In this document: piece after piece, positions 13,193-15,473 of the stretch | Numbering within the stretch: the stretch's first letter is position 1 | How the letters are laid out: each line of letters begins with the position of its first letter | Assembly (NCBI GenBank): GCA_002842265.1 | Contig: PHCO01000009.1 | Coordinates: 1-34,549, forward strand | Source: Betaproteobacteria bacterium HGW-Betaproteobacteria-18 | Lineage (GTDB): Bacteria; Pseudomonadota; Gammaproteobacteria; Burkholderiales; Burkholderiaceae_C | Length of the DNA stretch: 34,549 nt | Direction of reading: 5' to 3' | Notes under the pieces: model-generated | The model's input: only the letters and a program-made list of their open reading frames with translations | Databases searched by the model: none | Told to the model about the DNA's origin: nothing | Made by a program: the position numbers and the translations under genes

Positions 13193-13292
13193 CCCGGATG
13201 AAGCGAAGCGCAATCCGGGATGGTTGGCAACCGCACCGTCTTATCGGTCAGGAAGCCAATGCACCAAGCCCCCGGATTGGCATCCGGGCTAC
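13189..13292. repeat. GTAG-bounded REP/REPIN-like palindrome
   Basis: GTAGCCCGGATG (13189-13200) pairs perfectly with CATCCGGGCTAC (13281-13292); inner arms CAATCCGGG (13211-13219)/CCCGGATTG (13271-13279). Confidence 0.88.
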
Positions 13293-14551
13293 GGGCGCCG
13301 GGCAGGCCCTGTGTTTAGCGTCGGTAAAAAAAGCGCTTGCAGGTCATTCAAAAAGTCAAAGCCGCGCACACTGGGCTGCACGTGCTTGTCTGCTACGCTG
13401 AGCAAGCCTTGCGCCTGCGCCTGCTCCAGTCCGGCTTGCAAGGCTGACAGCGGCATGCCGGTGCGCTCGGTAAACAAAGTCAAATCAAAACCACTCGCCA
13501 GCCGCAGCGCGTTGAGCATGAACTCGAACGGCAGCTCGGCGCGCTTGACATCCAAGTCCTGCACCACACACTGCCCCGCCAGCGCCTGGGTCATGTAAAG
13601 CGCCGGGTTGCGGGTGCGCACCTGGCGCACCACCCGGTGCGCAAAACTGAGTTTGCTGTGCGCCCCGGCGCCAATGCCCAGATAGTCGCCAAACTGCCAG
13701 TAGTTCATGTTGTGCGCGCTGGTGTGGCCGGGGCGGGCATAGGCCGAAACCTCGTAGCGCTGCAGGCCCGCCATCCCGGTCATGTCGGTGATCAGGTCCA
13801 GCATGTCGGCAGCCAGGTCGTCGTCCACGGCCGGTGGCGGGTATTTGGCAAAGAAGGTGTTGGGCTCGATGGTCAGGTGGTAAATCGACAGGTGCTGGGG
13901 CGCCAGCGCCAAAGCGGTGGCGACATCTGCGCGCAACAGGTCGAGCGTCTGGCCGGGCAGGGCGTACATCAGATCCAGGTTGAAGGTGTCAAACGCCTGT
14001 GCCGCTTCTTCCACCGCCGCGATGGCCTGGGCACGGTCATGGACCCGGCCCAGCGCGCGCAAAAAATCATCGTTGAAGCTTTGCACACCCACCGACAGGC
14101 GGGTCACGCCCGCTGACCGGTAAGCTTTGAAGCGGTCCTTCTCAAACGTGCCGGGGTTGGCTTCGAGCGTGATTTCAGCGTTGGCGGCCAGCCGCACGCG
14201 CGCCCGGATGCCGGCCAGCAACTGGTCGATGGCTGGCGGCGAGAACAGGCTGGGCGTGCCGCCGCCGATGAACACGGTTTGCACGCTGCGGCCCCAAATG
14301 AGTGGCAGCGCGGCTTCAAGGTCGGCCATCAGGGCATCAATGTAGGCTTGCTCGGGCAACTCTGCGGCGCGCATTTCATGCGAGTTGAAGTCGCAATAGG
14401 GGCATTTTTTCAGGCACCAGGGCAGGTGCACATACAGCGACAGTGGCGGCAGGCTGCCGAGTTGCAGCGTGCCGGGGCGCATGTAGTGCTGGATGTCACG
14501 TGTCATGACAGGCGCATCCGTCAAAGGGGTGTCTTGCTGGATCGGGATCAT
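13289..14551 (-). CDS. hemW: Radical SAM heme chaperone (coproporphyrinogen III oxidase-like)
   Basis: 420 aa; PLSLYVHLPWCLKKCPYCDFNSHEM (CxxxCxxC), TVFIGGGTPSLFSP, ITLEANPGTFEKDRF, NLDLMYALPGQTL. Confidence 0.93.
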   Translation of the reverse strand: MIPIQQDTPLTDAPVMTRDIQHYMRPGTLQLGSLPPLSLYVHLPWCLKKCPYCDFNSHEMRAAELPEQAYIDALMADLEAALPLIWGRSVQTVFIGGGTPSLFSPPAIDQLLAGIRARVRLAANAEITLEANPGTFEKDRFKAYRSAGVTRLSVGVQSFNDDFLRALGRVHDRAQAIAAVEEAAQAFDTFNLDLMYALPGQTLDLLRADVATALALAPQHLSIYHLTIEPNTFFAKYPPPAVDDDLAADMLDLITDMTGMAGLQRYEVSAYARPGHTSAHNMNYWQFGDYLGIGAGAHSKLSFAHRVVRQVRTRNPALYMTQALAGQCVVQDLDVKRAELPFEFMLNALRLASGFDLTLFTERTGMPLSALQAGLEQAQAQGLLSVADKHVQPSVRGFDFLNDLQALFLPTLNTGPARRP

Positions 14552-14572
14552 CGGAATTTTTAGGCGTGAACT

Positions 14573-14648
14573 GCGTAGCAGCCGGATGGGGCGACCGCCT
14601 CATACTGGGGTACCAGAAATCGGCGATCACCCCATCCGGCTGCTACGC
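14573..14648. repeat. 76-nt hairpin element A (19-bp perfect terminal arms, conserved loop core)
   Basis: GCGTAGCAGCCGGATGGGG (14573-14591) / CCCCATCCGGCTGCTACGC (14630-14648); loop core CCTCATACTGGGGTACCAGAAATCG at 14598-14622. Confidence 0.9.
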
Positions 14649-14735
14649 TGATCCGGTTGATCGCTTGCAAATTTTGTCTGAATACCGTAATCCCAATGGC
14701 TGAAAGGTCATTTGGTTGACACACCTGTGCGTCTA

Positions 14736-14811
14736 GCGAGGCAGGCCCTCTGGGGGGCTGACGATTTCTGGTACCCCAGCATGAGGAAGCCGCCCAGAGG
14801 GCCTGCCTCGC
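14736..14811. repeat. 76-nt hairpin element B, inverted relative to element A
   Basis: GCGAGGCAGGCCCTCTGGG (14736-14754) / CCCAGAGGGCCTGCCTCGC (14793-14811); loop CGATTTCTGGTACCCCAGCATGAGG (14762-14786) is the reverse complement of the element A core with one substitution. Confidence 0.9.
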
Positions 14812-14873
14812 GGGTTTCGTAAAGAACGGACTTTGCCTTGGTGTCAACGTCGCTGCGTTCGCGTGTTCAATTC

Positions 14874-15473
14874 TCACAACCAGCGCTCGCGCATCAGCGC
14901 CACCATGGCAGCCGCTGCGCGTCCCCGGTGGCTGTTGGCGTTTTTCACTTCTACCGGCAGTTGGGCAAAGGTTTGGCCAAATTCGGGGATGAACATCACC
15001 GGGTCAAAGCCAAAGCCGTTGTTGCCCATGGGCTCACGGGCGATATCACCCACGACACGGCCCACCGCCACCAGCGGCTCGGGGTCGTCGGGCGAGCGCA
15101 GCGCCACCAACGTGCTGACCAGCGCCGCGCGCCGGTTGTCCATGCCTTGCATCTGTTCCAGCAGGGCGCGCACGTTGTTGTTGTCGCCCTTGGGGTAGCC
15201 GAATTGGGTGGCGTAATAAGCCGTTTGCACGCCCGGCAGGCCGCCAAACGCATCCACGCACAGGCCGGCATCGTCGGCCACGACGGGCAGGGCGCTGTGC
15301 TGGGCGGCGTGACGCGCCTTGGCCAGCGCGTTTTCAATGAAGGTGTGAAACGGCTCCGGGGCTTCCGGGATACCCAGGCTGCCCTGCGGGATCAGCTCGA
15401 AACCCAGCGGCGCAAACATGGCTTGCAGCTCAGCTAACTTACCGGGGTTGTTGGATGCCAAAACAATTTTCAT
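14874..15473 (-). CDS. rdgB: XTP/dITP diphosphatase (non-canonical purine NTP pyrophosphatase)
   Basis: 199 aa; MKIVLASNNPGKLAELQAMFAPLG, PVVADDAGLCVDAFGGLPGVQTAYYA, NNGFGFDPVMFIPEFGQTFAQL. Confidence 0.96.
   Translation of the reverse strand: MKIVLASNNPGKLAELQAMFAPLGFELIPQGSLGIPEAPEPFHTFIENALAKARHAAQHSALPVVADDAGLCVDAFGGLPGVQTAYYATQFGYPKGDNNNVRALLEQMQGMDNRRAALVSTLVALRSPDDPEPLVAVGRVVGDIAREPMGNNGFGFDPVMFIPEFGQTFAQLPVEVKNANSHRGRAAAAMVALMRERWL

Follow-up and report, generated by a model that had tools for sequence, protein, structure and literature searches.

Conserved loops and freely varying stems in a paired-hairpin repeat of Comamonadaceae, with an inherited copy between rdgB and hemW

Comparison with described repeat systems

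The REP and REPIN (BIME) elements are short dispersed hairpins that are non-autonomous, occur as inverted pairs, have one special strand per hairpin, and occupy intergenic gaps between co-directional or convergent genes. The two hairpins that we describe here between rdgB and hemW, in a window of 34,549 nucleotides (the whole stretch of DNA that was analysed), belong to a family that resembles them in all of these respects. It departs from REP in that the pattern of conservation is reversed, the loop being conserved and the stem free, and no GTAG/GGAG-type foot was recognised in the family. It departs from REPINs in that its hairpins do not lie beside a RAYT gene, the flanks of which hold a different repeat, GGGGTCAG. 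Nor is copy number tied to the presence of RAYT in the genomes of the window's genus, as it is for REPINs: two genomes with a single Y1 match each (G004 and G022) have 17 and 16 hairpin hits, and four others (G006, G014, G016 and G020) possess Y1 genes and lack the element. The preliminary description had called the pair REPIN-like and proposed a search for copies at RAYT/Y1 transposases. The inverted-pair layout stands, but an association with RAYT has to be rejected, as Y1 genes occur with and without the element, the hairpins do not flank them, and the core is absent within 30 Y1 loci. A RAYT-like Y1 transposase of ~240 aa is present in most genomes of the genus (loci L164, L169, L173, L177 and L179), and in several genomes the Y1/RAYT gene carries GGGGTCAG and the inverse of this motif in its flanks, by the look of it a repeat of the enzyme's own.

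MITEs such as the Correia/NEMIS elements of Neisseria are also similar, with inverted paired ends, a short non-coding spacer and many copies, some of them orthologous. The terminal inverted repeats without coding capacity that characterise MITEs are found in our composites with short spacers, in agreement with the MITE-like layout initially suggested. However, the ends differ from those of Correia/NEMIS-type elements in being themselves hairpins with variable stems, and no parent transposon came to light among the genes read between wide pairs. Integron attC sites, to which the locus had likewise been compared, are also structure-dependent hairpins in which the stem sequence varies and one folded strand is preferred. 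This has to be set against the fact that attC sites are arrayed and conserved at the base of the stem, whereas the copies studied here are inverted, conserved in the loop and variable at the stem base; lacking the conserved core sites at that base, an attC identity is not supported. The stretches that were read showed no integrase. Finally, the beta-proteobacterial repeat element (BRE) is the one named repeat whose taxonomy overlaps. It is GC-rich, mostly intergenic and 75-91 bp long in Bordetella; Polaromonas JS666 has 29 copies of it and Rhodoferax ferrireducens has 4, and it has been described as tandem, co-oriented repeats, prominent in Bordetella (Hot et al., 2011; PMC3110155).

The hairpin pair between rdgB and hemW

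Both are housekeeping genes, here of a Rhodoferax-type bacterium, and lie on the minus strand, rdgB (Ham1 family, 14874..15473; PF01725, E 1.8e-52) upstream and hemW (Radical SAM with HemN_C, 13289..14551; PF04055 and PF06969) downstream, with its start 22 bp from element A. Coordinates, folding and an independent search for inverted repeats, which recovered both elements, bear out the original reading of A (14573..14648) and B (14736..14811) as 76-nt hairpins that share a 25-nt loop on opposite strands. A is of type II and folds on the minus strand, sense to rdgB-hemW, while B is of type I and folds on the plus strand, antisense to them (96.5 and 96.2 bits, respectively, to the covariance model). 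As first written, the core of A is CCTCATACTGGGGTACCAGAAATCG (plus strand, 14598-14622) and that of B is CCTCATGCTGGGGTACCAGAAATCG (minus strand, 14762-14786); they are identical at 24 of 25 positions, as had been claimed, with 0 matches expected in shuffles. Read on the folding strand, the loops are CGATTTCTGGTACCCCAGTATGAGG in A (14598..14622, minus) and CGATTTCTGGTACCCCAGCATGAGG in B (14762..14786, plus), and they are near-invariant in 218 copies. The folding energy of A is -63.5 kcal/mol on the plus strand and -70.1 kcal/mol on the minus strand, and that of B is -64.7 and -61.0 kcal/mol; z ranges from -7.7 to -11.1, and none of 200 shuffles folded equally well. Within the 'loop' there is a further small hairpin, CTGG-NGTA-CCAG, so that the core is better regarded as an internal loop plus an apical hairpin. 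On the folding strand this hairpin reads CTGG-TACC-CCAG in both A (14605..14616, minus) and B (14768..14779, plus), and its pairs (33-36/41-44) are invariant in orthologues. On the minus strand (14560-14877) an open frame of 105 aa extends across both hairpins, and similar loop-crossing frames recur at other loci, so that automatic annotation may call false genes at hairpins.

Of the 30 rdgB loci read, 11 carry the insertion, the second hairpin being undetected in two of these 11. Filled and empty sites of the family both exist, including empty rdgB-hemW sites: most of the other rdgB loci have hardly any gap between the two genes, and several show a 4-bp overlap (GTGA). Across the nine complete orthologues, mean identity is 0.84 for rdgB and 0.83 for hemW, and reaches 0.86 for the type I and 0.89 for the type II hairpin (loops 0.92 and 0.98); it is 0.47 for the unconserved 87-bp spacer (14649..14735) and 0.31 and 0.34 for the flanks. 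Conservation is as clear in B, which folds on the strand antisense to the operon, as it is in A. Double changes can be counted at six and seven stem pairs from the orthologues alone. The stems have a mean identity of 0.81-0.91 to their orthologues, whereas the other copies of a genome reach 0.55-0.77. The pattern is one of vertical descent, with loop and pairing under constraint, and not of repeated reinsertion. At the level of sequence, these comparisons establish that the rdgB-hemW copy has been inherited vertically in a set of species and held by purifying selection. The window pair is an old orthologous insertion under constraint and more than a mobile copy; no target-site duplication is visible at this old insertion, and none was resolved. 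The locus also documents how a repeat came to separate two overlapping genes and afterwards fell under lasting constraint, a traceable gain of role.

Covariation, folding strand and forms of the hairpin

The compensatory stem changes that had been noticed between A and B hold far past this pair. In an alignment of 38 copies 90.3% of the stem cells pair, and double changes occur at every one of the 19 outer stem pairs, in 198 cells versus 58.8 in shuffles and 33-50 with a slid partner. The inner CTGG/CCAG stem is almost without variation, and on the folding strand the near-invariant part consists of an internal loop, GATTT/TATGA, and the apical hairpin CTGG-TACN-CCAG. Strong covariation and selection on a structure with a sequence-constrained loop, as first suggested, are thus both supported.

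The mismatches in the stem tell the two strands apart. On the strand first written there are 171 A.C and 26 G.T among 134 non-redundant copies (less than 90% identical to one another), and with a better registration 350 A.C versus 20 G.T in 232 copies, numbers that do not represent independent events as the repeat copies are related. Since A.C on that strand is G.T or G.U on its complement, it is the complement, with the loop CGATTTCTGGTACNCCAGTATGAGG, that is kept foldable, and not the strand on which the core had first been written. This folding strand is also the more stable one in 127 of the 134 copies. The wobble share amounts to ~7% of the stem cells, and an RNA helix would show likewise. 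The A.C:G.T bias is equal in left members of pairs (73:11), right members (100:13) and singles (94:12). Between co-directional genes it is found with the folding strand sense (72:13) as well as antisense (110:10), context counts being approximate because gene calls are heuristic, with hairpins masked. This likeness means that a mutational asymmetry tied to transcription fails as an explanation; preferential single-strandedness of the folding strand might contribute to the bias. Judged from these substitutions, one particular strand of each hairpin is demonstrably kept as a fold, with an outer stem that drifts yet remains paired, and a composite has exactly one folding hairpin on each of its DNA strands, regardless of the direction of the flanking genes. 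Sequence data alone can therefore reveal which strand of a dispersed palindrome stays foldable, whatever the direction of transcription. For bacteria that are common in freshwater, this makes a testable claim about a system of single-strand recognition. The hairpins are not intrinsic terminators: the folding strand has no U-tract following it and the flank is A-rich.

A and B belong to the same family, yet they are more than diverged copies of each other and represent two recurrent types. Type I has GGCTT before the core and TCAGCC after it, and type II has GGCCA-like and GTGACC-like neighbours. Among 81 cases of neighbours within 330 bp, the +/- order accounts for 70 and all other orders for 11. 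The spacers of the inverted pairs measure 29-198 bp (median 78), and 43 of the 70 pairs are mixed, with one hairpin of each type, versus 31 expected. There is also an 83-nt form, with TCAAAGGCC and similar sequences as apical loop, and a 102-nt form, in which an extra 22-nt module makes two additional small hairpins. In the composite behind a DEAD-box helicase gene, this module is present in both hairpins in genome G354 and in neither in G004, with an identical spacer in the two (L252 1079-1376 and L012 1501-1686). A simultaneous change of both loops by chance is unlikely, and template switching between the two inverted loops would be a plausible route to it. Within pairs, one variable loop position agrees in 57 of 70 cases versus 40.2 expected and a second in 40 versus 33.5, a value reached in 300 of 5000 shuffles; with only one variable position clearly above chance, selection for kissing between complementary loops is not convincing. 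An invertible switch acting through the two inverted cores was rejected too, because recombination at the cores would swap arms and destroy the stems, yet these are intact. Copies of the Limnohabitans type have their hairpin inside a larger palindrome that ends in GGGGTCAG, and in Limnohabitans-type genomes TGGGGTCAGATC ends surround the nested hairpin at L034, L040, L043, L051, L098, L130, L132, L133 and L138. Such palindrome ends lie on both sides of 29 single copies, and the inner part is flipped relative to them in some. One copy in this arrangement was found in a contig labelled Singulisphaera (L114), which is probably mis-binned.

Distribution, context and possible explanations

The preliminary description had predicted further copies, and a core search found them in the window's genome and its relatives. 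An 18-base core has 3 copies in the window's genome and occurs in 26 of the 61 genomes searched, nearly all in the same genus, with up to 38 per genome. The covariance model matches in 48 of 61 genomes of the genus, at 0 to 48 hits each, which is an upper figure as some palindromes matched on both strands. A scan of named genomes returned 119 stretches, mostly in Rhodoferax, Polaromonas, Limnohabitans and other Comamonadaceae; the family, with its core motif CTCAT..CTG / CAGAAATCG, was seen here only in Comamonadaceae (Rhodoferax, Polaromonas, Limnohabitans and Curvibacter). Across the order, the core pattern is found in 4 of 12 genomes of the window's family (f1) and in 0 of 388 others, and on 300 genomes of the order the covariance model matches in f1 only. 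Rfam yielded no family at gathering score, with sub-threshold miRNA-type hairpin matches only, in line with the impression that this family had no name; it is new to Rfam and has an unusual pattern of constraint, with a fixed loop, a free stem and a demonstrable folding strand. Phages and plasmids gave no meaningful match and viral contigs no core, and with nothing convincing there a phage or plasmid origin was rejected. Near-identical copies are found at unrelated sites within one genome. Using masked heuristic gene calls, 49 composites lie in co-directional, 11 in convergent and 4 in divergent gaps; when all gaps of 80 bp or more are counted, the numbers are 250, 65 and 90. The placement of REP/BIME elements relative to gene direction is similar. 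Single copies lean antisense (40 versus 25 sense).

We tentatively favour, with a probability of roughly 0.45, the reading of A and B as a composite of a Comamonadaceae-specific, non-autonomous, REPIN/MITE-like paired-hairpin repeat that is read as a folded single strand. The composite would consist of a type I and a type II hairpin, inverted around a short neutral spacer, with the loop as the recognition site of a putative protein acting on the folded single strand. As with REP and REPIN elements, the substrate would most likely be single-stranded DNA. Having two inverted hairpins may render the element independent of its orientation of insertion, and a copying process would spread copies to intergenic sites. 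Arm-to-arm template switching probably supplies the compensatory changes, which selection for folding would keep. Because the bias is independent of gene direction, we prefer recognition of a folded single DNA strand to an mRNA element. Still, with a wobble excess of this size an RNA reading retains some weight; in it, a structured RNA (a hairpin for mRNA processing or stability, or a small RNA) would be bound through GAUUU/UAUGA, the pair serving either direction of transcription. We consider this possible, if doubtful. In its favour, stems rich in G.U and poor in A.C on one strand are what RNA typically shows, and composites are scarce in divergent gaps. In the window, moreover, the type II hairpin folds on the sense strand and stops 22 nt short of hemW, and the 102-nt form resembles a branched RNA. 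However, the strand bias is equally strong with the folding strand antisense, the antisense lean of single copies and the conservation of B at rdgB-hemW point the same way, the orthologue comparison reveals no conserved promoter region in the spacer, and Rfam offers no match. A plain mRNA element is weakened, the folding strand being antisense as often as sense.

It is very improbable that the hairpins are passive repeat DNA without function, with arms kept complementary by arm-to-arm template switching. Compensatory changes are known to arise by template switching, and both loops of one composite have switched form together between two close genomes; yet such a neutral palindrome predicts neither a strand-specific wobble bias nor a loop that is still 92-98% identical at an orthologous site with hardly any similarity left in spacer and flanks. 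Identity or kinship with BRE, which we compared by description only, is unlikely, although size, GC-richness, intergenic placement and the copies in Polaromonas and Rhodoferax match (Hot et al., 2011; PMC3110155). Instead of the tandem, co-oriented organisation described for BRE, inverted pairs dominate here, and the core is absent from the 388 Burkholderiales genomes outside the window's family, a sample that may not include Bordetella, with no covariance-model match outside that family either. Returning to the paired-hairpin repeat read as a folded single strand, we would go further only with hesitation, and suggest a strand-symmetric class of such elements in which a factor reads the internal loop, with one active hairpin per strand, coupled loops and some copies kept across species. 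That factor may act on folded ssDNA or on RNA of both strands.

A single tandem same-strand array was seen, of four hairpins (L257 697-1351), and it resembles the description of BRE. A gene-cassette system was rejected as a general explanation for wide pairs, since others flank ordinary genes and their content is mixed; a BrnA gene (L111) and a GST gene (L251) also lie between hairpins. At L253 (647-1678) two same-strand 102-nt copies enclose the gene of a RelE-family toxin and an HTH gene. At L083 (5525-7399) the genes of a BglII-type restriction enzyme and an N6/N4 methyltransferase stand between two hairpins, behind a topoisomerase-like gene read as parC, and the same BglII-type enzyme seems to be adjacent to the third copy in the window's genome (L003, contig C115, about 1501-1800).
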